From contig JAULBX010027507.1 of assembly GCA_032358255.1 (NCBI GenBank), positions 1-36,483 of the forward strand: a stretch of 36,483 bases of DNA, read 5' to 3'. The notes below the pieces were generated by a model, which did no database searches, was not told where the DNA came from, and worked only from the letters and a program-made list of their open reading frames with translations. Below, in pieces: positions 2,625 through 32,200 of the stretch; within the stretch, counting starts at the first letter, position 1, and each line of letters begins with the position of its first letter. The position numbers and the translations under genes were made by a program. This DNA is from Heterotrichella gracilis. Its lineage: Eukaryota > Sar > Xanthophyceae > Tribonematales > Xanthonemataceae.

Positions 2625-4284
2625 ATGGAGCGGGAATACATGCCTGCAGAGACAACAAAATGCGCCCCTACGGATGACAGAGTACCCTCAGGGAGAGCGG
2701 CTGTGGAGGACCGAATACCCTTAGGGCGCGACAATGTGGTACCAGCTGCGGAGGACAGGATAGCCCAGGGCTGCGCAGCCCTGGCAGCGGCGCAGGTTGT
2801 TGCTGTGCCGACCGACACCCTCTACGGTACGCCCTGCAGCTCCATTCCTGACCGGAAACCCTAAACTTTGAACCCTTCGAGTTGTTGCGATGCCAACCGA
2901 CACCCTCTACGGTACGCCCAGGAGCGGCACCTATGGCTGGAAGTTCTTAAGCCTCAACAATAATACTTTTTTATGGTGCGCTGTACGGGACTACAGTGCC
3001 ATTTTTAAACTCTGAGCAGTTGTTGCAGTGCCATCCGGCATGCTCTAGAAAACGCCTTGCAGCTGCGTCCCTGGTGAAATGTCACAATTCATAAACTCTG
3101 AACGAGATAGACACGCGCATACCATGTGCCTTGCAGCAGCTTCACTGCTTATGGAATGGATATTTTTATGTTACCCTGCTTTGTCATGCGATTTTAGCCC
3201 AAAATTGGCCACATAGGTCATTTCCTGACCACCATACTCAATCGTGTCGCCATCGCACCTCCACCGTCACTTCACCGCCACCCACACCCACCCCACCCCA
3301 CCCGCAGGCCTGGCGGCGTGCGCCAACAGTCCCCAAGGGGTGCGCGCCATCTACTCCATCAAGCGAAGGAACCTGACCTCCCCTCTGGCGATAACTGTGT
3401 CTGATCCCTTGCACGTGGGTCGATACGCACATGTGGACCACCTGCCACATGGCCTGCTAGAGGACCTGCTGCCTGGCCCTGTGACTTTGCTGCTGAGGCG
3501 GAGGGAGGATGCCCCGCTGTGTGCGGAGCTGAACCCCGGCGTGGGGTCTATAGGTGCGCTGGGATTACCCTTCTGTAGGGTATGAGATGTGTACTACCTG
3601 CTGCCAGGCGCCCTGTGCATCCTTTCTGGGGTCAATTTTATCTCTTTCTGTTGTGTGCATTTCGCATCCCAGGGCAGGCAGGGGGCATTCGATTGAACTG
3701 TATATTTTGAACAAACATCTAAGTGTTTTTAATATACGGTATATATTGTATGTTAACATGTATGCATGTGCTTTTCCTGCAGGCATTCGGATCCCTGACC
3801 ACCCTCTCCTGCGCGCCCTGTGCCGCGCCTATGGGCGGGCCCCGATTATATCTATTATGTCATGTGTAAACACAGCTGATTGAAATGGTTTTATTTTAAA
3901 TCTTAAATTTATATGTACTTTTCTAATCCTTATTTGCATGTTCATATGTGTGTCTGTTTGCCTGCAGGCATTCGGGTCCCTGACCACCCTTTCCTGCGCG
4001 CCCTGTGCCGCGCCTACGGGTGCGCCCTCGCCCTCACCTCAGCCAACATCTCAGGGGCCACCAGCCCCTTGCGGGTGCAGGAGTTCCAGGAGCTCTGGAA
4101 CCAGCTGGCGGTGGTGTATGATGGGGGTGCCATCCCCTCGGGGCGCGCAGGGTCTACCGTGGTCGAGCTGGTCCAAGGGGGATGTTATAGGGTTGTGAGG
4201 GAGGGGAGTGCGCTGGAGGCGACGGTGGGGGTGCTGGAGGGGCGGTATGGGCTGCGGCAGGGGGAGGGCGAGGGGGGGGCATAG
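2625..4284 (+). CDS. YRDC: Threonylcarbamoyl-AMP synthase, YRDC/Sua5 type
   Basis: Three exons: 2625-2826, 3308-3553 and 3968-4284 (stop TAG), giving 254 aa; both introns are GT-AG and phase 1. The enzyme joins threonine, bicarbonate and ATP into threonylcarbamoyl-AMP, the donor for the t6A37 modification of ANN-decoding tRNAs. Family motifs appear in order: AVPTDTLYGLA across the exon 1/2 junction, KRR...PLAI, LLPGPVTLLL, GIRVPDHP across the exon 2/3 junction, ALALTSANISG, and STVVEL...YRVVREGSA near the C-terminus. There is no C-terminal Sua5 domain, so it is the short YRDC form, with length close to the animal protein. The start is uncertain. ATG 2625 gives a compact protein, but the frame is open upstream to an ATG at 2448 and the added residues could act as an organelle-targeting peptide. 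Both introns hold partial copies of neighbouring exon ends. Confidence 0.88.
2881..2925 (+). repeat. Partial copy of YRDC exon 1 end with donor
   Basis: About 45 bp nearly identical to 2796-2840, which is the last 31 bases of exon 1 plus the start of intron 1. The offset is 85 bp. The copied segment still encodes PTDTLYG followed by the same GTACGC donor. A more decayed third copy can be traced at 3019-3075. Using the copied donor would retain 85 bp with an in-frame TAA, so it would not give a functional enzyme. Confidence 0.85.
3783..3838 (+). repeat. Partial copy of YRDC exon 3 start with acceptor
   Basis: A CTGCAG acceptor followed by about 50 bases that match the start of exon 3 (3968 onward) with few differences, encoding IRIPDHPLLRALCRAYG. 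It then diverges into AT-rich intron sequence. The offset is 185 bp. The upstream flank also resembles that of the true acceptor. Splicing to this acceptor reaches an in-frame TGA before the real exon 3, so I treat it as a pseudo-exon. Confidence 0.85.
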
Positions 4285-5610: not shown

Positions 5611-5927
5611 CCAGCGCAACCAGAAGAGGGAGATCAGCTGCAAGCCCTGAGCCAGGGTTTTCGGCACACCTCAAACGCCTGCAGCTTATAACCACTGGTT
5701 AGTCAGGTACTGTACTTGCGTTCCAGCACTACAGCCAGGTCAGCAACCCTAGCTGCCCTGCAGGCGGCCAGCCCCCTCATCCTATTCCCCTGGCTAGTGA
5801 ACCCCACTGGCACAGATCACTATCCGCCAATAAGAGTCCAGTAATAGGACAACAGGGGGTTGGAGAGGAGCCCCCCGAAGCCCAAAGGACCACCGGCAAC
5901 TCCCAAAAGAGGTCAAGCAGTGGCCCA

Positions 5928-8900
5928 ATGGCGCTCCCACCCACCCGCCACTGCCCGACGTGGCTCACCCCTTGCACGGCCACAGCACCCCTCCGCACCC
6001 ACCACCGCAGCCACCACCACCACCACCATCACCACCGCAGACCGCCCCTCCCCGCCACCACCACCACCTGCAGCGCCAGCCCGCCCCCACCCCCCACCCC
6101 CACCCGCGCCCGCCTCTTCTCCAACCTTAACCCCGCCACGCTCCGCCATGAGCCAGGCACCGTGTGGGGATCCACAGCCCTGGTTGCGGGGACCACAGTC
6201 GGGGCGGGGATCCTGGCGCTGCCAGCTGTCACCGAGGGCTGCGGCTTCATTGCCTCCAGCACAGCACTAATAGCCTGCAGCATCTACTCAATTACCACCG
6301 GGTTGTTGATAGCAGAGGTGAACGTGAGTACTATGTGTGAGCTGGGCAGTGGCGGGGTGTCGATCGTGACGATGGCGGAGCGGACGCTGGGCAGGGGGGG
6401 GACGGTACTCGCGTCCTCCACCTACATCTTCCTGCACTACGCGCTCCTGGTGGCATGTAGGTGCAGCACCCTCAACTCTAACCCGAGAAAGTATACATGG
6501 ATGGCACCCGCCTTGTGCACTGATGCGCCTGAGAACCGGCATGCATGCTGGGTTTAGGAGCCCCGCTTGCATCTACGGTTTAGGGTTTGGCCTTGATGAT
6601 TCCTAAACCCTAAACAGCATTGGGCCAAGCTGACAAGTTGCTACAAGCACATCCCTTATATCGCCTAATTCATCCTGTGTGGGGCTAAAATCTTACAACC
6701 CCCCCCTGGCCCCCTGCAGATATCTCCCGATCAGGGCAGGTCATATCCGACGTCACAAATGCGCCCTCCTGGGTGGCAGTGACGGCATTTGTGTCGACAT
6801 TTGGGGGGCTCTGCTATTTCAGCTCCCCCAGGACGCTGGATACCGCAAATTCAGTGCTGGTGGCGGCGGTGGTGGGCTCGTTTGCGGTGCGCATGGGAAA
6901 CCCTAAAGCGCAGGCTTGAAACACTGCTCGTTCAAAGCAGCAAGGAAAAGCGAGGGAAAGAATTTACCCCTTGCCATCTTCCTAATGACTGCGATTATCA
7001 TGCAAGTGCCATGCTGGCTATCCAATTTCAGCTGCATACGAGGCTGCCACAGCCAATAGAGCCTTGAGTCAAACTTGCCACTGCGGAGTGAATGGCGTGG
7101 TTGAAATGCGCACAGCCAGATCAGCAGTTGAAATCCTGAAAAATCATCACATCCCCCCTTGCAGTGCCTGCTGGTGGTGGTTGCAGCGGGGTTGGACCCA
7201 GCGGCTCTGGTCAAGGCCGAGTGGACTCAGCTGCCTGGCGCCCTCCCCGTCATCGCGCTGTCATTTGTCTACCAAAATGTGGTGCCAGTCATTGCGAGCA
7301 GCCTGGAGGTGCGGTGTTATTAAAATGTTTTTTTAAGTGAATTTTAAATAATTCATAGAAAGTAATTGCGAGCAGCCTGGAGGTGCGTGCCACAGATGAA
7401 AACACGTATCCCGAAATTTTCCGTGCCTGTCCTGGTAGGTGGGTTGGTCCCCACCCGCATATCATTATGACATGGTCTCAAGAGGGTTGGAGGGTTGAGA
7501 GTAATGAGTTATCATGTGTTACAGTAACAAACCCAAAATTTATCACAGTAAATGAACCCAAATTCACAAAACCTGATTACAAGGGGGAATTAAATGCATA
7601 AACATGAATGGAAGTTGCATGGGTGGGGGCATAGACAGCAAGGGGGGCATTACTATTATACGCGTACCGACCACAATAGCCAGATCAGCAATCAAACTCG
7701 CACAAGCATGCGCCACTCAGTCCTGTCCTGGCATTGTTTGTACCGTTTTTGGATGTGTCTAGCCTGCAGGTCCTTAGTAACGGGCATGCTCCCCCAGTAA
7801 CACCTAGGGTACGTATGATGAGTGACGCGAAAGGGTAAATATTTAACCCGCATGCAGGGAGACATGCCCAAGATCCGCACCAGCATCGTCCTCGGGGTTG
7901 TCCTCCCCTTGATCATGTTCCTCGCCTGGAATGGGGCCATCCTGGGATCATTGCCGCCTGCTGACGTGGCAGGTGGGCTGTCATCAGACCCACTCATGGT
8001 GCTGAGGTCGGGCGATGCAGCGCTCATCGGGCCGCTCATCGACACGTTTTCGTTCCTGGCGATCGCGACGTCGTTCATCGGGTTTGCGTTGGGTCTTTCT
8101 GACTTCATTGCTGATGGGCTGAAGGTCAGGGTGGTGCAGTGGGATGTACATGGGTTTGAACTTGTGATCGATTTGATCCACTCTTAAAGAGAAATACTGA
8201 TGGGTGGGATGCTTGCCAAGGTACCATCCCACGAGAGGTGTGTCCTGTCATCGCCCATTAGTACAACCCTGGCACGTGTGTGTGTGTATTGTGCCTGGCA
8301 TGTTAGATGTGCGTGTACCGATGCCACATTTTTCAGACCAAAGCATATGCATCCCGAGGTGTCTACCTGTCCTCTCAACGTACAAAGGGATCATGCCTCC
8401 CATCTTGATGGTATGTCCTCGTTGCCATGCTTTGCTTACCAGCTCGACGTCTCAAAAGGGTAAGGGCCAAGGGTTAGCGCAACCAGCTCCCCCTCATAAG
8501 GTTGAGTTAGAGGTTAGGGATATTAGGGATCTGCTCACCCTAGGAGGTTTAGGTTTAGGAGGTCTAGGTTTCAGCTCATTCTCATGGAGCAGCGCTGTTC
8601 ACTGAACGGCGCATCTCGCCCTTGTTCACTTCCCTCCCCACCTGGCACTAACCATCACTTTCCGCCCCCTGCAGCTGCCCAGCAGCCGCCAGCCCCTGCC
8701 CTACCTCCTGGCCCTCCTCCCCCCCTCCGTCCTCGCGGTGCTCTTCCCCGGGATCTTCTTCTCAGCCCTGGACTTTGCGGGAACCTATGGCGTGCTAGTG
8801 CTGTTTGGGCTCATTCCCGTTGCAATGGTATGGCGCGAGCGGTACGGCGGGGTGGGCATGCGAGTCCCGCAGGCGGTCCCCGGTGGGAGGGTGGTGCTGG

Positions 8901-8989
8901 TGGGCGTGGGGGGGCTGACGGTGGCTGTGATTGGAAATGAGGTGGCGCAGGCGCTGGGTGGGGTGCTGGGCTTTACTGGATCTCACTGA
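5928..8989 (+). CDS. Aromatic amino acid permease (Trp/Tyr permease family)
   Basis: Five exons: 5928-6456, 6720-6886, 7165-7308, 7858-8124 and 8675-8989 (stop TGA), giving 473 aa. All introns are GT-AG. The first transmembrane segment, residues about 77-99, carries GTTVGAGILALP, the hallmark of the HAAAP/Trp-Tyr permease family of proton-coupled aromatic amino acid transporters. Later segments also fit: SFVYQNVVPVIASSLEGD, followed by KIRTSIVLGVVLPLIMFLAWNGAILGSLP and FLAIATSFIGFALGLSDF (residues roughly 265-360). The exon 3/4 junction joins SLE to GDMPKIR exactly where the family is continuous. Residues 1-75 are rich in Pro, Thr, His and Arg, include an eight-His run, and contain no membrane segment. 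Plant homologues are predicted plastid proteins, so this may be a transit peptide. ATG 5928 is the only upstream Met in frame; an extra 5' exon is possible. The substrate (Tyr or Trp) cannot be read from sequence. Confidence 0.85.
7365..7387 (+). repeat. Copy of permease exon 3 end with donor
   Basis: Twenty-three bases identical to 7291-7313, the last 18 bases of exon 3 plus the start of its GTGCG donor, repeated 74 bp downstream inside intron 3. Using the second donor (after 7382) would add 74 bp and shift the frame. Confidence 0.85.
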
Positions 8990-10381: not shown

Positions 10382-13300
10382 ATGGCTGCCATGAAGAGGC
10401 GCCAGGCTGGGGCTCTGGCGGCACTTGGGTTGTTGGCGTATGCCCTCTGTCTAACGAGCGCAGGTAAGAGTTTTGGGGTCCAGCCTCCACCCACATATCT
10501 TTATCGAAACTTGAGTTCGTAAATTTATCGTTACCAATTTATCGTTACCTGAGTCTTGCGCCAACCTTGTCCAAGTAGCGCTGTGGGGCATGGTCATCAC
10601 AACTTGTCACCCATCAGAGGAGATCGTGCTTATTCACTTTTGATCCCACTACCTCTTGCACTGCAATTTCGCTAACTCAACATCCGAAACGCCGGTTTAG
10701 TGTGTCTATTTCGGAGCGTGGCTGTATATGCCATCATGGCGAGCTTGATCCTTGTTTGTTATGCATATGGGTCGCTTGGCATACACTCTCATGCGCAGCC
10801 TTAAACGGGCACACGCGTCACCCAGGGGTCCCACAACACTGCCTTGTCTATCTCTGAGTTAACCTTAACTGGGCAAGCCCATGCAACACACGCACCTAGC
10901 AGGGTTGTCCCCCCACTCACTGCCCTACCCTACCGCGTGCAGCCATCGTCGTCAAACCGCCAAGTACCACGGGGGTCAGTCCCAGTCCCGTGGGGATTAA
11001 AACACCAGTCGCAGGAACAGGACCCCTCGACGTTAAGTACAAGGCTCTGGGAGGGTCAAAGGTGACGGGGTCGACTATCGCTCCCGTCATCCTGGGAACC
11101 AACACCACCAACAACGAGGGCACCGCATACTACCAGCAGTTCACCAATGGAGTGATCGCCTACCACCCTGCCTATGGCGCGGTGTGGATAGGTAGGAACC
11201 CTAGCAAACCTTACACCTTCAGCACTTGAGCACTGACTTCTGGTCAAAGCCCAGCGCTGCAGCTGCACCAAGGTAGGGTAGTCACACATACTTGAGCAAC
11301 ATGAGCAGCTACAGTGCCATAACAGGTCAACAACACCTTTCCTGCTATGTGGCATGCATCTGTTGGTGTGTACCGTGGCGTGCTAGCCTACAGCGCGAAC
11401 CATGTTTAGGGTTTAGGGTTTTGGGTCTAGGGGTTTACCACCTCCTGTCCCTTTCCTCCCTCACATCCGCCCTCTCCCTGCAGCCGGTGCCGACGTCTCT
11501 CAAAAGTGGGTTGACCAGCGAAACGACCTCGGCTACCCGCTCAAGGACACCTACCGCTGGGGACCTAATATCAGCCCCCCCTCAGAATACACCCCCATTC
11601 TCACATTTAAGCAGTACGCCTCCATCTGCGTCAAGCAGCCTGGTAACTCCTTCATCAAGGGCTCCATCACAGTGTGCGCCAAGGGCGCCATCACCCAGGT
11701 ATGTGCGCACACCCTAGCCTAGGGTTTTGGTGCGATGGGTGTGTGCGTCGAATCCTGTTCATCATTGTGCCTGGCCCGCACCATGATGTGTGCGCACACC
11801 CTAGTCTGGGTTTTAGTGCGATGGCGTGTGCGCACCCTAGCCAAGGGTTTTGCTGTGACTGGGATGTGCGCACACACCCTAGCCAAGGGATTTGGCTGGC
11901 TGCAATGGCTGCCTCTGGAATGCAACTGACCCAACTTCCTGCGGTGTCTGCAGCGCGACGTCACTGGGGATGACTTCATCCCCCCTCCCCCCCGCACCAT
12001 CAGCGGCGCCCTGTTCTACAAATGGCGCTCTGAAGCCGATGTGTTTGGCCCCATGGGGGACATGGAAGTTGGGTTCTACAAGCCGGTGTTCAGCACCCCT
12101 TCCCAGCTGTTTGTGTGCGCTGTTCTATACCAGGTGAGCTTCCAAGGAATTTGTGAAGCATGCCTAATCGATTTAATCCAATGCTCCTGGCCATTGTAGG
12201 ATCTCAAAGCTGTCCTGCACCATGCACACTATCTATTGACAACCCTAACCCTGGAAGATGAACCCTGAACCCTAAACCCTGTGGCCCCAATGTGCAGAAG
12301 GACCCAAACTGTGTTCTATCCCATGCACCCTAAACCCTAAACCCTAAGCCCGTGTTATGGCCACCACGTGCAGGAGGACCCCAACTCAGTGGCTGGCAAT
12401 ACCGTCCTGCCCCGCGCATACTACCTCCTACAGAATAGCCCCCTCACCGCCCGCTACCGCGCCTCCGGGGTGGGGACCAAGCTGGGCAGGCCTAAGAGCG
12501 ACCAGGTGCGCAACACCCTAATGAGGATTTTATGGTGTAGGGTTAGGGTTTGCTTCATAGGCTACCGCGCCTCTAGGGTGGGGACCAAGCTGGGCAGGCC
12601 CAAGAGCGACCAGGTGCACAACACCCCAACGATTTTTAGGGTTGAGGGTTTACTTCCCAAACTTTGGGGCATACTGCTTAATGAGGAGCTGCACTGTCTT
12701 CACACGCTAACATGCCACAGGGATGGGCTTTAATCTAGGCAGCCTCAAGGGTGCCCAGTGCTGAAAATGACTCTTAGATAGATTTTTAGCGGCTTAGCTT
12801 GGATATAAAATACACTCATCAAAGCCTTCTTGCTGCAGTACGACGTCAAGGTCGGCGGGGTGACTGCCAGGGCCCAGGAATTCGAATCATGGAGTGCTTT
12901 TCAAAAGATACATTAATACTTATTAACCGCCCCCCCTTGCTGCAGTACGAGGTCAAGGTTGGCGGGGTGACTGCCAAGGCCCAGCAGTTTGAGCTTGGCT
13001 ACCTCATCTACACCTCATCCACCGGCGCCTACGAGATCATCTATGGGGACATCGAGGCACGCTATGAAGTGCTCAAGGGTTTCAGAGGGACCCTAGGGTT
13101 TCCCGTGGGCCCGCCCACCTCAGGCAAGAACAGCATCTCCTGGCAGAACTTCGAGAATGGGGTCCTGATCAAGTACCCCAACAAGGCGCCCTACAATGGA
13201 TGGCCAGGGTCTTTCATGGTCAAGATGTTCACCACCCTCTCGGTAGGTCCTAAACCCTGAGCACGGTAAAGCTGAATCCCCCGACGTGCAAAGTGTACCT

Positions 13301-16300
13301 AGCCGTCACATTGACAGCAGGGCCAATGCCTGTTGCCTGTGTTTAGAATTACAAAGTCCGAATCCTACACCCCTACCCCTCCCCTCCTTGTATAGGTGTA
13401 CCTTGCCCCAAATTTGACACCAGCTGCTTTGTGAAATGAGATTTGCTAAACCCTGATCCTATGCCCAAAAAACCCTAATCTTACACCCCAAACCCTTGCC
13501 TCATTGTGCAGGTGTACGTTGACCGCTTTGACACCAGGGGCGATGACTGCTTCCTGTGCGGGGACCAAGACCTCTACGTCAAGACCAACGTGCACTCTAC
13601 CAGCCCAGGTACGGCAGCGCAGTTTTTAGGGTTTAGGTTTCTGCGTTCAGGGTTCAACCAGTGCATGTATGGCAGCGCAGGGTGGATGTGCACAGCGGAA
13701 CACAACTTGCCACCGGTGCATGCCATGCAGCATGTAGTGGCACGCACTGCGTAGTTGACTACATATATAGCCAACTGTCTGCCCCTCCCTTGCATGCTGC
13801 CTCCCTTGCACAGCCCCCAGCACCTCCCATTGCCTGTTTATCCCCCCCCCACATATGCCATCCCCCACATGCTCCCTCCCCTTGCATGGTCCTCCCCGCA
13901 GTCCCCACCACTCCCTGCTTAAATGCTAACCCCCTTTGCACCCCCCCTCACACCCACACCCACACCCACCCCCACCCTACCCCAGGTCGCAGCTACATCA
14001 AGCGCATGCCCTCCAGCGGGGACTACGGCAAGGATCAAAACATCCAGGGAAACATCCTCAACATCTCGGTAAGAAAACCCTATCTAGCCCTGCTATCCCC
14101 TGCTTAGGGTTAGAGGATTGCTGGCCGTACTGATGTAAAGAGTGTAAAATTTAGGATAAGTGACCGCTAGCCCATTCTGTATGCTGCCTCTACCTCTGCT
14201 TTGCATTACACACAACAATGACACATAAGAAGTACCAAATTGTTTTCTTTTCTTACCCTACCCCTCCCTGCCTTGCAGCCAATGCGTGGAGAGACTGTGA
14301 TCAGCGCCAAATTCGAGGGCTGGGATTCCGACGACACCAGCAGCGATGACAAGCTTGGGACCACCACCGGCACCTTTGACTACACCACAGCCTGGGATGC
14401 CTACGCGGGGCTCAAGGTATGAGTCTGGAGATCAGGAACATTGCCTGCGCTTGTCAAAATATACACGGGTGTAGCACTTGAAAAAGGGAAGTATGCATTA
14501 AAGACCACTGCACTTTTCAGGTCAGGCAAGGGTAGAAAATGAGATTAAGTAGGACTAGTATCAACATTATTATTACCCTTGGGTCAGGGCACTGCAACTT
14601 TTAAGGTGCCCAATGCAATAATACAATGCAAGTTAACTGCAAGTTTGAGGCCTCCAACTTTAAGGCCTCCAACGCAGTGATGTAACCCACATGTTTCCAC
14701 TTCACAGAACTCTTGGAGCGGCAATTCAAGGTCTGGTACTTCTTCAAGGCGCCCCATGTACATGAAAAATCCCTCCTTGTCTAATGTAACTTCCCACATG
14801 TACAGAACTCCTGGAGCGGTGACTTCAAGGTCAAGTACTCCATCAAGGCGCCCAATGCAATCGACCCCAAGGCGCCGTGGAGGCAGACCTACTCATGGGC
14901 CTTTGACAACTTCAAGACTGCAGAGCTGAGCTACAACGATATGGCGGAAACCTTCAGGTAACACCCCAGTAGGCTTTAACTCGTGAGGTCCAGATCTTTC
15001 AAGCACACCCCTGCCTAGAGGTCTAGGGTTGGTGTGGGGTTTCTGCACCCACTTGGACCAGGATTTATGGTTCAAGTGGGTCTGTGGCTTGGGTAGTGAA
15101 TTATTGCAAAATAATTGTCATTGTACTCTGCACTACCCCTGACCACACCTCTGCAGGTTGAAGGTCCAATCAGGGTCCCTTAGCTAGGGTTTAGGGTTCG
15201 TCTCTGACACTTGCTGAAGATATTGACAAGCGAGAATGAAATGCTTTTACAGTGGCTTCAAAACCTTTGAGAAACCAGGCTTGCGGTAAACCACCGTAAC
15301 TGACATTCTACCCTTGACCACCCTTTTGCAGGGACATCGGTAACGACGAGTTCTGGTTGTGGCACCCTATCCACAAGATATTCTACGAGGTGGCATACAA
15401 GAGCATCGCTGACAAGGGCAACTGCTTTGGAATGGCCCTGGCATCAATCTACGCACAGGTGCGGGGATGTCTAAAATAGAATCAAATTATAACTTTTATG
15501 GGACTTGATCTATGTTACTCCACTTTGGAACTATACTAATTGTTGCCATTTTACGTGTTGCAATTGCATCAGCTTTGCATTTCTCCACACAAGTGTGGGC
15601 CCATGGGGGCGATGCAATATCCATCTGCATTTGACCTTTGACCAAAACCCCCTGTTGCTCGCAGATCGGCCGCAGCCCCTACAACCTGCCCCTTTCCAAC
15701 TGGGGATCCCCCAAGGCCCTGGCATCCCCAAACAAACTGGACCTGACCACCGCTGTGGATAAGAGCCTCGCCAAGACCATGAACATCTTCCACGGCTATC
15801 AACTGGGGGCCCCCGCGGCAATGTATGCACTGGCCAAGTACGCCAGGTGGCTTAAATCCTTTGGCAGCTTCGACGCCAAGCAGGCGTTCTTGGATACTGA
15901 GACACAGATCAATGGCAAGGACTACCCCGTCATTGCACTGGTACGTCAAACCCTAAGAATCCTACAGTGTGCTAGGTGCATGGCATTTTGGCTGTATCAG
16001 ATAGAGAGCCAGCCCTGCTCGGCTACGTTGGTTTGGCTGCCAGTCGTATTTCAATCCCCTTGGCTGCCTGCCGAAGGGTTCCCCTCCACCGTCCGCCATA
16101 GCTTGCGCCCCATCTGTCTTTGGCATGTCTTACACCTTTTGAAAAACTCCCTGGATGCATTGTTGCCACAGCTGGGTGGCCCAGAGCTACAGTACCCTTG
16201 CTAGGTTCCTTGCAACATTGCTCGACCATAGCCAAGCATTGGGCGCCCAACCACCCTTTACCACACTAGCATCTGACCCTTAGCTAAGGGTTTCTTGCCT

Positions 16301-23207: not shown

Positions 23208-26200
23208 ATGGCTACCACGAAGAGGTGGGCGGTACTTGGGCTGTTGGCATATGCGCTGTGCTTCACGAGCGCAGGTAAGGCTTACTTTAGGGCTCAGCCT
23301 CCGCCTGTTATGCGCATTGAAATCGATTTTATAATCACCGCTTTGCTTGAATCTTGGTTCGAACGGCGCTGTGGGTCAATGGTAATCACAACGTGTCACC
23401 CATCAGAGTAGGACGTGCATTCTCACTTTTGACCCCACCACCTCCTGTAGTGCCAACTGCACTAGTAACCTTAAAGACCGACTAGTTTGACGGTTTCGGA
23501 GCTTGGTTGTCTACGCCGTAATACATCATGGCGAGCTTGATCCTCTTGTCATGGGGTCGCTTGACAAGCATGTACACAGCCTAAAAGGGCACACGTGTCA
23601 CCCAAAGGGCTTACGGCGCTGCACTTGTCTGCTTCTGCGCACTCGATATTATGCAAACACGGTGGCTTTTACAACACACGCACCTAACAAGCGCACCAAC
23701 AACGGTTTTCACTGACTACCCTACCGCATGCAGCCCTCATCGTCAGACCGCCAAATACTACTCCCACGGGGTCCAGTCCGGCCCCCGTGACCGTAGTAAC
23801 TCGGGCTGAAGGGACCGGTCCCCTTGACATTAAATATAAGGCTCTGGGAGGGTCAAAAGTGACAGGGCCAACCATCGCTCCCGTCATCCTGGGCACAAAC
23901 ACCACCAGCAACGAGGGCACCGCCTACTACCAGCAGTTCACCAAGGGAGTGATCGCCTACCACCCTGCCTACGGCGCGGTGTGGATAGGTAGGAACCCTA
24001 ACAAACCCTTAACCTTGAGCACTTGTGCCAACGCCCATCATCTCCAGTGTAAGTACACATGGACTAGTCATGGACCAGTACTGCAGCAACAGGAACTGCT
24101 TTAGCACTACTACACTACACTACACTACACTACACCACACTACACTACACTACACTACACTACACTACACTACAGCATGTCAACTCAGCTTTGCTGTATG
24201 CGGCATGGACCTTTTTGTATTGTCTGCCAAGGTGTGCCCGCCTCTTCACATGTTTAGGGTCTAGGGTTTATAGTTTAGGGTTTAGGGTTTCACCCCCTGC
24301 CCTTCCCTCCCTCACAACCGCCTTTCCATGCAGCCGGTGCCGACGTTTCCCAAGTGTGGGTTGATCAGCGAAACACCCTCGGCTACCCACTAAAGGACAC
24401 CTACCGCTGGGGGCCTAATGTCAACCCCCCTTCCGAGTACACCACCATCTTGACATTTAAGCAGTACGCCTCCATCTGCGTCAAGCAGTTTGCCAAGGCA
24501 GATGTCAAGGGCTCAATCACAGTGTGCGCAAAGGGCGCCATCACCCAGGTATGTGCACACACCCTAGCCTAGGGTATTGGTGTGTGCGTCGAACCTAGCC
24601 TTGGGTTCTGATGTGGCGGTGTGTGTGCCAAGGGTGCCATCACCAAGATATGTACGCACACCCTAGCCTAGGGTAGCAGTCGGCCTACCGACGCAGCCGG
24701 TCACATTTACTTGTCAAGCGATGGCTCTACATGACATGCTCTCAACTTATCACTTGGTGATTTCTTCCCGTTTGAAAACTGCATTTCTTTCCATGTTCAG
24801 GCACCTTCCCATTGACAGGAAACAACCGTTGTAAATTTATGTCCCTGGCATGTGCAAATACCCTAGTTAAGGGTTTTGGCTGGTCTGTGCTTCCGAACCC
24901 ATGCAACTGACATAATAACTCCGGTGCCTGCAGCGCGACGTCACTGGGGATGACTTCATCCCACCTCCCCCCCGCACCATCAGCGGGGCCATCTTCTACA
25001 AGTGGCGCTCGGAGGCAGATGTGTTTGGCCCCATGGGTGACCTGGCGCTGGGATCCTACAAGCCCCAGTTCAGCACCCCATCCCAGCTGTTTGAATGCGC
25101 AGTCGTGTACCAGGTAAGCAGCCAACTTCAATCCAAAACCCTAGGGAAGGGTTTAGGTTTCCATGCAGGGTGACACAGTCGTGTACCAGGTGAGCAGCCA
25201 AGAAACTGGCAACACAGTCTTGCCCCACGCCTCATGCCTGCTTGAAACCTGAACAATGAACAACCCAGACCCTGAACCCCAAACCCCAAACCCTAACCCG
25301 CTTGGCCACCACCCGCAGGAGGACCCCAACTCTGTGTCTGGAAACACCGTCCTGCCCCGTGCATACTACCTGCTTCGGAGCAGCCCCATCTACGCTCGCT
25401 ACAAGACCTCAGGGGTGGGCTCAGTGCTGGGCAGGCCTAAGAGCGACCAGGTGCGCAAAACGCTATACAAGTGCGCAAACCCTACAAAGTTTTGCCCTTA
25501 TTGCTGCTTTATGCCGTCAAGGTCAGCCAAGTGACCGCCAAGGCCCAGCAGCTTGAATATTTAGCTGGCTTTTGTTGAATGTACTCATCATTATAATAAG
25601 GGCGTTCCAGCAAATCGGCAATCAGCCTTGCTCATGCACGGCTCACAAAATACACTTGTCAATGCGCCCCTTCTTCCCCTGCTGCAGTATGACGTGAAGA
25701 TTGGCCAGGTCACAGCCAAGGCCCACCAGTCCGAATAATCAAATGGCGAATTTTCAATACGAATATACTTTGTTGATGCGCCCCTTTCCCCCCCTTGCAG
25801 TATGACGTCAAGATCGGCCAGGTCACAGCCAAGGCCCACCAGTCCGAATAATCAAATGGCGAGTTTTCAATACGAATATACTTTGTTGATGCGCCCCTTT
25901 CCCCCCCTTGCAGTATGACGTCAAGATCGGCCAGGTGACAGCCAAGGCCCAGCAGTTTGAGCTCGGCTACATTATCTACACCTCATCCACTGGCGCCTAT
26001 GAGATCATCTACGGGGATATCGAGGCGCGCTACGAGGGTCTCAAGGGTTTCAAGGGAACCCTAGGGTTGCCCGTTGGCCCGCCAACATCAGGCAAGGGTT
26101 TTACTCCTGCTACTCGAACCCTCTGTATGTTCCACCTGGCTGAACTCCTAAATCTGTCATTTGTTTTATCAGCTGTGGACACTCTTGCCTCTCCCACTGG

Positions 26201-29200
26201 GAATCCCAGTATGTTGATTATGACCCCGTCTTGCCTTCGTGCTGCATCCTCCTGTGTTGCTATTACTGATGCATTAGAGCTAGACCCCCTGATAGGTCAT
26301 GACGATCTTGCACCTCTGTCATGTAGGCACCAAATGTAAATTGTACAACTCGATTAGAGGCTCCCACCGCAAGACTTTCAGAACCCTAAACCCTAACACT
26401 GAATTCACTTTCACAGGCAAGAACGGCATCTCCTGGCAGAATTTCCAGAATGGTGTTCTCATCAAGTACCCCAACAAGGCGCCCTACAATGGATGGCCAG
26501 GCGCCTCCCTGGTCAAGATGTACACAACCCTCTCGGTAGGTTTAGGATTTAGGGTTTAGGGTTTAGGATTTAGGGAATAGGCACCTTGCAACGGCTGGCC
26601 AGGGGATCCCTGGTCAAGATGTACACAAACCCTTTCCGTAGCGCCCTGCAACCCCGTTCCGTTACCCTTATGGATGGTAACTTTCGACCCCCCTTGGCCT
26701 GGGGGTTGTATGCACATGTTCTGTCCTGGATGCTCAATTGATGGGCTCCGGCATGGTGGTTCTCGATGTAATAATTGGTCATGCACCTTAACAAAACCCT
26801 AACTCATCAAGGCACACAATGGCTGGCTGGGATTGTTGCACATTCATATTGTGCGCCGCCACCTCCTGGAAGTCCCACATCCTCAATGTTCAAGTCCCGC
26901 TACTTGAATCTTTCGTCCTATTTATTTCCCTACCTTGCCTCCTGGACCATTTTGGCAAGCAAGAGGAGCACCCTGAACATCTAACCCTGAACTCCTAAAC
27001 CCCAACGCCACTTCTCCCGTCTGTGCAGGTGTACCTTGACCGCTTCGACAGCAAGGGGAGTGACTGCTGCCTATGTCTTGAAACCCTAAACCCTAATCTT
27101 ACACCCTAAACCCTCCCCTTTGTGCAGGTGTACCTCGACCGCTTCGACACCAAGGGGAGTGACTGCTTCCTGTGCGGGAACCAGGACCTGTACGTCAAGA
27201 CACATGTGTACTCAACCAGCCCAAGTATGTGATGCACCAAATGCATGACACGACATGCATTGCCATGCAATTCCTGTTGGCATCAATTGCCTTGCAGAAT
27301 TGCCAGTCATGTAAGCAGCTGCCTACTAGCTCCCCCTTGTGATCAAATGCCCACGCTGCCCTGTTTTCCTCTCCTTGCATGTTTTATGTATCCTCATAAC
27401 CCTGTTTTCTCCCATTTGCAACCAGCCAGCACAAGTATGTGATGCACCAAATGGTTGGCATACCATGACTTGCCATGCAGTGCCAATTGCCACACAGCAT
27501 ACATTGCCTTGCAGTGTACCAAGCACCATGCAAAGCTGCTGCCTGCAAAAAAACCCTTGCAGCGGGGGCTGTTACCATGCCACCCTGTTTCCCTCCCCTT
27601 GCATGTTTGCTGTATCCTTGCCTTGCCTTTATATATGCTTGCAGGCCTCAGCAATTCCCCATTGCTTGGTTTCTAACCCTTGCATGTGCCTCACCCCTGC
27701 AACTCCCTTCGCCTTTTTTAAAACCCCATGTGCACTTCCCCCTTCCCGCAGGTCGCGACTACAACCATCGCTTGCCATCCAGCGGGGACTACGGCAAGGA
27801 CGAGAACATTCAGAAAAACATCCTCACCATCTCAGTAAGGAAACCCTAGGGCTTAGGATTTTGGGTCTAGGGTTTGTGGACTACGGCAAGGACCAGAACA
27901 TTCAGAAAAAACATCCTCAACATCTCGGTAAGGAATCCCTAGCCTATCCTGGGCGTATCTAGGGCTTAGGTTTATGGTTTGTAGACTGTTGTACACACAG
28001 CTTGTGCCATTCCATGTGCACATTCCCTCTATGGGGAGCGTCGACAGAATGAGCCATAGCTACGTCAGACTGAATATGATAATACACTTCCCTTCTACTC
28101 AATGTGTTCCTCTGTACTGTCCCACATAGAATGTGCCACCCGGATGGTTGAACGCGTTCCCTTTTCTCACTCCTCCCCGCCAACTGCAGCCCATGCGTGG
28201 AGAGACTGTGATCCATGTCAGGTTTGACGGGTGGGATTCTGATTCCACCAGCAGCGATGACCACCTGGGGACTACCACCGGCACCTTTGACTACACCACA
28301 GCCTGGGATGCGTACTTGGGACTCAAGGTGGGAGGCTCCGGGGATTTGGGTTTGTAGACGCCGTCCTGCATTATGCCTATTCGACAACCCAATGTCTGAT
28401 GTCCATTTGTCTAGACAGTAGATATAGGTACTGTTTTCTTTCAATGTCTAATGTCCAATGGCTAGTGCCTCTTGTCCAATGCCTAGTGTAACTCTGCCAG
28501 ATGTAATGGTTTCCACATTTGCACATCTACAGAACTCCTGGACCGGTGATTTCAAGGCCAAGTACTCCATCAAGGCGCCCAATGCAATCGACCCCAAGGC
28601 GCCGTGGAGGCAGACCTACTCATGGGCCTTTGACAACTTCAAGACAGCGAAGCTCAGCTACCAGGATATGGCCGAGACCTTCAGGTAACACCCAGATTAG
28701 GGTTTTGATTGACCAGGGATGTACTTATGAGAAATGCAGGCAACCCCCTGGCCAGATGTGGAGCGTTCAACCAAGGGTTAGTAACGCTCTACCCTTCACC
28801 ACCCTTGCAGGGACATCGGCAACGACGAGTTCTGGTTGTGGCATCCCTTCCACAAGATATTCTATGAGGTGGCATACAAGGGCATCGCTGACAACGGCAA
28901 CTGCTTTGGAATGGCCCTGGCGTCCATATATGCACAGGTGCGGGGACGTTTAAAATATAATTCAATTATAAACTTTTATGCGACTTGTTCTATGTTACTC
29001 CTTTTATGCGACTTGTTCTATGTTACTTTGGAACTATACTAATTGTTGCCATTTTACGTGTTGCAATTGCATCAGCTTTGCATTTCTCCACACAAGTGTG
29101 GGCCCATGGGGGCGATGCAATATCCATCTGCATTTGACCTTTGACCAAAACCCCCTGTTGCTCGCAGATCGGCCGCAGCCCCTACAACCTGCCCCTTTCC

Positions 29201-32200
29201 AACTGGGGATCCCCCAAGGCCCTGGCATCCCCAAACAAACTGGACCTGACCACCGCTGTGGATAAGAGCCTCGCCAAGACCATGAACATATTCCACGGCT
29301 ATCAACTGGGGGCCCCCGCGGCGATGTACGCACTGGCCAAGTACGCCAGGTGGCTTAAATCGTTCGGCAGTTTTGACGCCAAGCAGGCGTTCTTGGACAC
29401 CGAGGCTCAGATCAAGGGAAAGGACTACCCCGTCATCGCACTGGTACGTTGGGTGAACCTAAACCCTAAGAACCCTACAGTTAGGTTGGTATATGGCATT
29501 CCAGCAGTCCTCCAGACTTGTGCTCAGCCTTGCGCACCCCAAATCTGCCTTGGTCTATTACAAAAGTCACCAGGCCCTAGCTAAGGGTTTCTTGCCTGCT
29601 TTGCCAGGTGCCCTCCAACCTGCTCGATGGTGGCGGCCACGTCATCAGACCCTACGCCGTGGACAAGTCAAACCCTAACAAGTGGATCCTCAAGGTGGCA
29701 GACCCTAACACGCCCTACAGCCAGGACACAAACGAGAACAGCGCAAACAACATCCTGTGGGTGAGTGCTCGGTCCTGGAAGACCTAAACCTAGCCTGTAG
29801 GGTTGCTTTGGTCGTACCAAAGTGGCTGATGTTGTGGGTGGCATGTAGTGTGTGCTGAAGGATGCAATCAATAGACCTTGCGCGCTCGGAGTTTCGAGAC
29901 AGCTTGACCCAGTCCCTGCTTGCTAGCTACGTTGGTTGAATCTTCTGAGACTACTTGCTTCCGCGCTGACCCTCATTTCAGAAAATGACCCCAGCTGGCC
30001 GTCTCTCATTCTGCCCCTGCCTTGACCAGTACCCTCCTAGGGCACTTGATACAATGGGCATTCGCTTGTAATAAATCGCGACCAAACGAAAATGCGAATC
30101 AGGAGTCTTGTCCTAACCTTTTCGTTCCCCCTCTCACAGGTGAACCCCAAGACCAACAACTGGGCCTTTGAGGGATCCATCAAGTTCCTGGGCCAGCCGG
30201 GCGGCCTGGGCGCGTGGTTCTACCCCATCCCCTTCCACCTGGTGTGTGAGGAGCCCCCCTCGGTCACAGAGGACCTGCTGTCCAACATCCTGGAGGGTCT
30301 GGCAATTCTGGTGTTTGGTGCGTGCGTGCATGGAACTTTAGCTGACCCTAGAACCCTTAGATAGGGTATGGTGAGGACCTGCTGAGCAACATCCTGGAAG
30401 GACTGGCAATTCTGGTGTTTGGTGCGTGTGTGGTTGGAACCCTAGAACCCTTGGATAGGGTATGGTTAGGACCTGCTGTCCAACATCCTGGAGGGCCTCG
30501 CAATTCTGGTGTTTGGTGCGTGTGTGGTTAACAACCCTAGAACCTTTAGATAGAGTATGGTTCGGACCTGCTGGGCAACTCCTGGCAATTCTGGTGTTTG
30601 GTGCGTGTGTGGTCGAAACCCTGAACCCTTAGATAGGGATTGGTTGCTGGCCAACATCCTGGACGGTTTGACAACGCAAGTTGATGGGTTGATTAGAACC
30701 TTGCAGCTTTGGATAACGGATCCTGTGGCTAATATACTGGAAGGTCATACTCCTATTTAAGTGCGTGCATGGTCCAAAGTCTTTTATATATCCAATATTG
30801 TTTTCACCGATACCGTCCTGTGAACATGACGTGCAGTAGTTCCCCCCTCTACTCTCCTGGCAATTAGCAGATGTAGCATAGGCATGTGAGTACTTTGACA
30901 TCCGCCCTAATTAAAACTAGCATTTGCATTTCACATATCTTTGAACCCCGCTTCTGTGCTGTCCTGATCACCACCCCGCATCCCACCCCTGCAGGTTCAG
31001 CCGACACCCAGCAGATAGAGGATGGGCAGGGCAGGAAGCTGTACAAAACCACTCGGGAGCAATCCCCAACCAAGTGGAGCGACATCGATTTTTCGACCAA
31101 AACCAACGTTTTCAGGGTCCCCGTCACCCCCGCTGGCCGTCCCCTTGGGGATGCCCAGCAGACCACCGTGGCTGGTAAGAAATTGATGACATTGTGTTGT
31201 TGCAAGGCTTATGCCTTGTTTGCTTTTTGCTGTTTGTGTAACAAACAGGACGCTTGCTTGTATCTTACAGTTATCACTACTAGACCTTGCAGAGAGTGCA
31301 TGCCATTGCCACCCTCGCTCAAATCCAAGACCCACTTAGGGTTTTCTTTTTCACGCACCCCTCCTGCCTCTTGCCTGAAACCCCATGAAAACCCCCACCA
31401 CCTCCCCACCTCCAGTTGCAGACAACACCACCGTGGAGGCCAGGGCGCTCCGCCCCATCATCATCATCGGTACCCAGAAAGTGCCTTTTGAGCTCTACTA
31501 CGTGCGGAGGGCAGGGGGCCTGCGCAGCGGTGCCACCGTCAAGCATGTGGTCAAGCCACGTGGCATCGCGGGAAGCTACAAGGTGGCGTTCAAGTCCCCG
31601 GCAGGTAGGGCTTGTCACTAGGGTTATCGCTAGGGTTTATCACTAGGCTATAAGGTAGTTTCCCCGGCAGATAGGGCTTGTCATGACACTAGAGTTGAAG
31701 GGTTTGTTACTTGTTGTTTTTCACAAGGGTTTATGCAAGTGCCATGTGCCAGCAGCCAAAATGACAACTACAAGGCCAATCTCACTTCCCTCCTACCCAA
31801 TCAACAACACGTCAACATCCCTCGTACACTACGAAGCACCCACCACCACCTACCATCCACGCAGGTGCTTTGGACATTGAAGTTACCACCACAGCCGACG
31901 ACCGATCACCCGACACCTTCACGATCAACAGGTTTGGCTATGCCGACCAATCCCTGGGTCTGACTCTGGGGTCCCAGAAATCGCTCAAGCTGCGCCTGTC
32001 CACACAGCCCCTCACCGGGTGAGTGAGCACTTGAAATCCCTCAAACCCCATAACCTAGTCCAGACCCACTAAATGCCTGATTTCAAATCACGTGTGATCT
32101 GTCCTTTGCAGACTACACCTTTGCCTTTTCAATAGATTGGTGTTATGCAGACCTCATACTCTTGTCAGTTCCTCCTATCACCCCAGTTCCCTCAAATATG

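Follow-up and report, generated by a model that had tools for sequence, protein, structure and literature searches.

A paralogue-specific GC-AG intron bounded by exact 8-bp direct repeats in a tandem LGFP-repeat gene pair from the Heterotrichella gracilis assembly

Results

The window analyzed here is one whole contig of 36,483 nt (JAULBX010027507.1) from the 68.5-Mb, 903-contig assembly deposited for the xanthophyte Heterotrichella gracilis (GCA_032358255.1). Most of it is taken up by a tandem pair of one intron-rich LGFP-repeat gene, referred to as copy 1 (about 10.3-19.6 kb) and copy 2 (23.2-33.2 kb), and our subject is an intron that divides one exon, exon e, in copy 2 only. The gene model, drawn from paralogue conservation and splice sites, comprises 17 shared exons (a-q) together with a first exon, which encodes a signal-like peptide, and a last exon. 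Exons a-q are free of stops in both genes (1007 codons in copy 1 and 1008 in copy 2), and the two proteins are 86% identical across 1003 aligned codons, with a nonsynonymous divergence (dN) of 0.084 and a synonymous divergence (dS) of 0.417 (dN/dS about 0.20). The undivided exon e of copy 1 (12946..13242, forward strand (+); 297 nt) encodes an LGFP repeat (E 1.1e-8). A large protein collection yielded four homologues, each a single reading frame, that align to 75-95% of the copy-1 protein at 28-30% identity; one of them belongs to a Bacteroidetes metagenome-assembled genome and the other three are unplaced. Because the homologues that were found, in a setting where eukaryotic relatives were not properly searchable, are uninterrupted frames and one lies in a Bacteroidetes genome, a bacterial origin is possible, and the gene may have gained at least 18 introns after its transfer.

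In copy 2, exon e is divided into e1 (25914..26091, +; 178 nt) and e2 (26417..26535, +; 119 nt) by a phase-1 GC-AG intron of 325 nt (26092..26416, +) that was delimited by alignment of the flanks and by splice scores. It starts with GCAAGG, ends with TTTCACAG, and leaves a remainder of 1 when its length is divided by three. Aligned to the undivided exon of copy 1, the two flanks match without a gap between them and overlap by exactly one 8-mer, CAGGCAAG, which stands at both junctions of copy 2. In the left repeat (26089..26096, +) CAG is the end of e1 and GCAAG the donor, and in the right repeat (26414..26421, +) CAG is the acceptor and GCAAG the start of e2. The matching site of copy 1 holds a single CAGGCAAG (13121..13128, +) within the codons TCA GGC AAG (Ser-Gly-Lys), which is also the exon reading in copy 2. 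A sequence-only reading of the window had already described a paralogue-specific 325-bp intron in exon e, flanked by 8-bp repeats of which copy 1 keeps one, and had placed the last and first exon bases at 26091 and 26417; our alignments bear out each of these points.

This intron was compared with other introns of the assembly in a set of 66, consisting of 37 from the window, the copy-2 intron included, and 29 from CCT genes elsewhere. Boundaries in the window were placed by hand from paralogue conservation. The CCT introns represent 29 of 41 neighboring exon pairs at ten loci (7 were dropped for a wide gap, 3 for want of a solution and 2 for a low score), GC donors carried neither a penalty nor a bonus when they were called, and one that was kept (L030 295/314) is poorly placed. 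All 65 other introns are GT-AG, so that the contrast between the GC-AG boundaries inside the repeat and the remaining introns, also part of the sequence-only reading, held in the larger set: the copy-2 intron has the only GC donor among the 66.

A weight matrix built on the 65 other introns was used to score donors at 26050-26139 against acceptors at 26340-26469. The best in-frame pair was 26092/26417, with a score of 16.2 versus 8.5 for the runner-up. Splicing at this pair would yield PTSG|KNG, where copy 1 reads PTSGKNS. The donor scored 9.4 even though C at position 2 received no credit (median of the 65 others, 9.0); the acceptor, at 6.8, is rather weak (lowest tenth of the others 6.2, median 11.4). 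Sliding the junction through the repeat gave no GT-AG alternative that would yield the same protein. Use of a GT donor at 26125, which keeps the frame and lengthens the protein by 11 residues, could possibly give rise to a minor form. When left unspliced, the frame of exon e meets a stop within the 325 nt, near 26339. As copy 2 is open and constrained, the 325-nt interruption would have to be spliced out, and we infer from the DNA that 26092-26416 is probably removed in vivo. A GC donor within a strong consensus, an AG acceptor and a restored frame all place it in the GC-AG class. The motif CTAAC at 26393-26397 (+), 20 nt upstream of the acceptor, resembles the branch-site consensus and is a possible branch site. 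In sum, the copy-2 intron is a real paralogue-specific GC-AG intron that goes back to a single event of known kind.

The significance of the 8-bp repeat was evaluated against the background set. CAGGCAAG is not a rare word in the window, given that it occurs 7 times versus 2.64 expected. To measure junction repeats, the sequence around each donor was set in register against that around the acceptor of the same intron. At least 8 matching bases were present in two of the 65 other introns (2/61 without locus L037, which has short introns and may come from another organism). Both are GT-AG introns of CCT genes, one matching over 9 bp (L030, hidden Markov model (HMM) 376/372) and one over 8 bp (L032, 377/375). 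Among 4160 shuffled donor-acceptor pairs, 1.0% reached at least 8 matches; an earlier set of 32 introns had given 0.8% by shuffling and 0.4% by independent positions. Repeats of at least 5 bp occur in 9/65 other introns. A published survey of 213 introns (PMC11782384), with a wider search range than ours, reports that all of them have direct repeats at their borders or close by. The length of 8 bp is thus unconvincing when taken alone, since two ordinary introns and 1.0% of the shuffles match that far.

The part of the repeat that lies on the intron side gave a different result. The copy-2 intron matches there over 5 nt (GCAAG), a value reached in none of the 65 others, of which the highest, three introns, match over 4 nt, and in 0.17% of shuffled pairs. 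At least 3 matches on the exon side combined with at least 5 on the intron side were seen in 0.096% of shuffled pairs. These percentages belong to a measure that was picked post hoc, after the data had been seen. The intron-side match of 5 nt is more telling than the total length of the repeat. It forms one fact with the rare GC donor, because the exon itself reads GGC AAG at this place.

The 317 nt between the repeats (26097..26413, +) are single-copy in the assembly. Further copies of 26097-26413, for which the sequence-only reading had looked to a genome search, did not emerge: DNA queries of 333 nt and 317 nt against the 68.5-Mb assembly returned the window itself only (E up to 10), and patterns taken from the two ends of the insert (24 nt and 23 nt) had no further match in the assembly at up to 3 mismatches. 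Neither terminal inverted repeats nor internal similarity were detected in the insert, the best inverted match between its 70-nt ends being an internal 7-mer, AGGGTTT. Compared with the rest of the window, the insert gave short telomere-type stretches and one 27-nt match of 78%, all with E 0.088 or worse. Searches of plasmids and phages revealed no source for it, its predicted single-strand DNA fold was no better than that of shuffles (z -0.75), and no Rfam family was found in the window at gathering thresholds. Origin by tandem duplication of an exon piece (the AGGT model) is not supported, as this comparison showed no similarity of the insert to the neighboring exon. The intron also contains a 15-nt palindrome, ACTGGGAATCCCAGT, at about 26196-26210.

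Telomere-type repeats are frequent in this assembly. The exact plant-type repeat AAACCCTAAACCCTAA occurs 3751 times, versus 0 for the reversed control. In the 37 window introns, TAGGG/CCCTA motifs number 92 versus 26 in shuffles and lean to the intron ends; in the 29 CCT introns they number 31 versus 21, within the range of the shuffles (maximum of 200, 34). Two telomere-type units, ACCCTAAACCCTAAC, lie near the acceptor of the copy-2 intron (26383..26397, +), and one of them forms the CTAAC. Pairing of intron ends through such motifs was evaluated for 60 introns of at least 140 nt, where the mean duplex energy was not clearly better than with shuffled partners (P = 0.095); for the copy-2 intron itself the pairing is weak (-11.0). 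It is improbable that introns in this lineage are born when exon breaks are healed with telomere-type repeats, in view of the missing excess in the CCT introns and of the fact that the motifs could be splicing signals or simple repeats.

Beyond exon e, the gene pair carries exon pieces with their splice sites repeated inside introns beside the real exons, often with stops. Such pieces were located at 24621-24674, 25500-25847, 27022-27075, 27878-27941 and 30345-30622 in copy 2, and at 12561-12632 and 12829-12885 in copy 1, and tandem duplication seems to be frequent at this locus. A 300-nt stretch composed of intron sequence and exon k sequence is 99% identical between the copies (15522-15821 versus 29025-29324), where exons are elsewhere about 85% alike; judging by this identity, gene conversion probably lies behind it. 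The neighboring genes (3229-3585, 5703-6557 and 8606-8989) encode a YrdC/Sua5 domain and a tryptophan/tyrosine permease. The assembly is mixed. A 200 kb read of another contig (C1) showed 35% G+C, dense coding, one tRNA gene and bacterial families such as FtsK and the CHU_C and SprB domains. This contig, at least 894 kb long, resembles a contaminant from the Bacteroidota. The contig that carries L037 (C101) has short introns and may represent a second eukaryote.

Discussion

We favor the explanation that copy 2 gained the intron after the gene duplication, by insertion with duplication of 8 bp, and give it a probability of about 0.58; this figure, like the weight that we attach to loss below, is a judgement and not computed odds. 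A stretch of DNA would have been inserted into exon e at the exonic proto-splice site CAGGCAAG, and the 8 bp would have been duplicated either when a staggered break was filled in and joined or by a solitary transposition. The left repeat could have acted as the 5' splice site, since CAG|GCAAG already resembles a GC-type donor, and the right repeat would have provided both the AG acceptor and the restored exon. With the left repeat as donor and the right as acceptor, the 325 nt would be spliced out and the protein left unchanged. The presence or absence of the intron between the copies, the exact repeats, the frame, the splice-site scores and the single-copy state of the insert are direct observations; the direction of gain and the molecular route of insertion we infer.

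In support of gain by insertion, the empty site in copy 1 is exact and holds one 8-mer. Two of the four homologues read PTSGG here, in agreement with the Ser-Gly at this site, so the target's AG|G probably predates the intron. The GC donor finds its explanation as well, because the duplicated exon sequence GGC AAG supplies it. For the same reason the GC-AG boundaries, which the sequence-only reading had taken to favor a young intron, say little about age: the donor follows from the GGC codon of the exon. Nor is the identity of the two repeats a sign of youth, because in each of them one half is maintained by the code and the second half by splicing. Any account without a duplication needs chance to provide a GC donor (0/65 others) that repeats the GCAAG start of the following exon (0/65).

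Several points weigh against gain by insertion. Junction repeats of this length occur at two ordinary introns of the same assembly. When the copy-2 intron is included, at least 8 matches are found in 3/66 introns versus 0.66 expected (P = 0.013); when it is excluded, the two remaining cases compare with 0.67 expected from shuffles (P = 0.13), and the mean junction match is not above that of shuffles (P = 0.81). We therefore make no claim that junction repeats are in excess across the genome as a trace of past insertions. In Drosophila, gained introns are no richer than conserved ones in flanking repeats of at least 5 bp (19/77 versus 26/100; PMC3296678). The insert came without an identified source or transposon signature from the searches of the assembly, plasmids and phages and for inverted repeats. 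A third paralogue that could serve as an outgroup is absent from the assembly, which holds two copies only (one other match, on contig C340, has E 0.086). Among the fragments from algal relatives in the protein collection there was no candidate with exon e, and a search of viral contigs with exon k returned 13 pattern matches and no relative. The four homologues, at about 30% identity and with undivided frames, are uninformative on the state of the intron at the time of duplication.

It is possible, though in our view somewhat unlikely, that the intron predates the duplication and was lost precisely from copy 1, a rival that the sequence-only reading had also named. Microhomology joining or slippage could have deleted the DNA from one 8-bp repeat to the next, or the gene could have taken up a spliced copy made by reverse transcription. 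If the two 8-mers recombine, one of them remains, exactly as seen in copy 1. Short tandem duplications of exon pieces abound at the locus, which also contains the 300-nt near-identical stretch, so rearrangement and conversion do occur there. Moreover, the 297-nt exon e of copy 1 is the longest of the 17, and e1 (178) and e2 (119) are ordinary in size. However, under loss the identity of the rare GC donor with the start of the exon would have to be accidental or stem from a previous insertion of this type, and copy 1 has kept the introns that flank exon e, which lends no support to replacement by a long complementary DNA.

Far less probable is gain without any target duplication, the 8-bp repeat then being a coincidence of splice consensus. 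The two ordinary introns with 8-9 bp and the 1.0% of shuffled pairs speak for such a coincidence, and the consensus readily accounts for CAG on both sides, present at 13/31 other exon ends and 31/31 other acceptors of the first set. It does not extend to GCAAG, which begins none of the 65 other exons that follow an intron, nor to an intron-side match of 5 nt.

We consider it very unlikely that the insert is an introner, a member of an intron-making family of transposable elements, as the sequence-only reading had suggested. Insertion with target duplication, one half of that suggestion, remains coherent, and introners are described that duplicate 8 bp of their target, that use GC donors and that take splice sites from the place of insertion (PMC9860276). 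The introner itself does not fit, with one copy in the assembly and no terminal inverted repeats, where published families have 5 to >2,000 copies (PMC9860276). This search covered one mixed and perhaps incomplete assembly, from which diverged copies (under about 70% identity, an estimate) may escape. Finally, that the stretch is not an intron at all, copy 2 being broken or the insertion an assembly error, is hardly credible: the intron was called from DNA sequence, but its splice sites are suitable and bring back the reading frame, and copy 2 is constrained and otherwise free of lesions throughout exons a-q.

A presence/absence pair with exact repeats offers a testable case of how a splice-like coding word could give rise to an intron that has left the protein unaffected ever since it arose. 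An 8-bp repeat as sole evidence is weak, occurring as it does at ordinary introns of the same assembly; junction repeats need to be weighed against the matches that donors and acceptors of that genome show in general, and the intron-side part has to be considered. The case would gain in importance if related strains had the empty site, as the intron would then have been acquired recently and without any introner family.

With introners the copy-2 intron may share a target duplication, its repeat being within the known size range, with splice sites derived from that duplication, and it has a GC donor, which is allowed there (PMC9860276); it differs in that its insert is single-copy and without inverted repeats. 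According to the same text, target-site duplications occur in 49/130 and terminal inverted repeats in 72/177 published introner families; a single 8-bp repeat, of a length that two of 65 ordinary introns also reach, could have other causes. Several introns alike to near both splice boundaries were not found here among close copies in this one mixed assembly. As in intron loss between direct repeats, of which PMC3296678 gives one possible Drosophila case, the copy-2 repeats would permit exact loss, whereas the Drosophila deletion was imprecise. With GC-AG introns of the major spliceosome the copy-2 intron shares the AG|GCAAG donor, strong pairing around the GC and a CAG acceptor, with no difference among the features compared, minor-spliceosome signals not having been searched for. 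In Daphnia, where 43% of the gained introns have short direct repeats on their flanks (PMC3443670), gain was shown among populations, whereas here gain is the probable direction and a GC donor lies inside the repeat. The staggered-break repair proposed for that type nevertheless has the same features as our case: an insert of no known family, short direct repeats, and an empty site in a related copy that holds one repeat, here copy 1 at 13121-13128.

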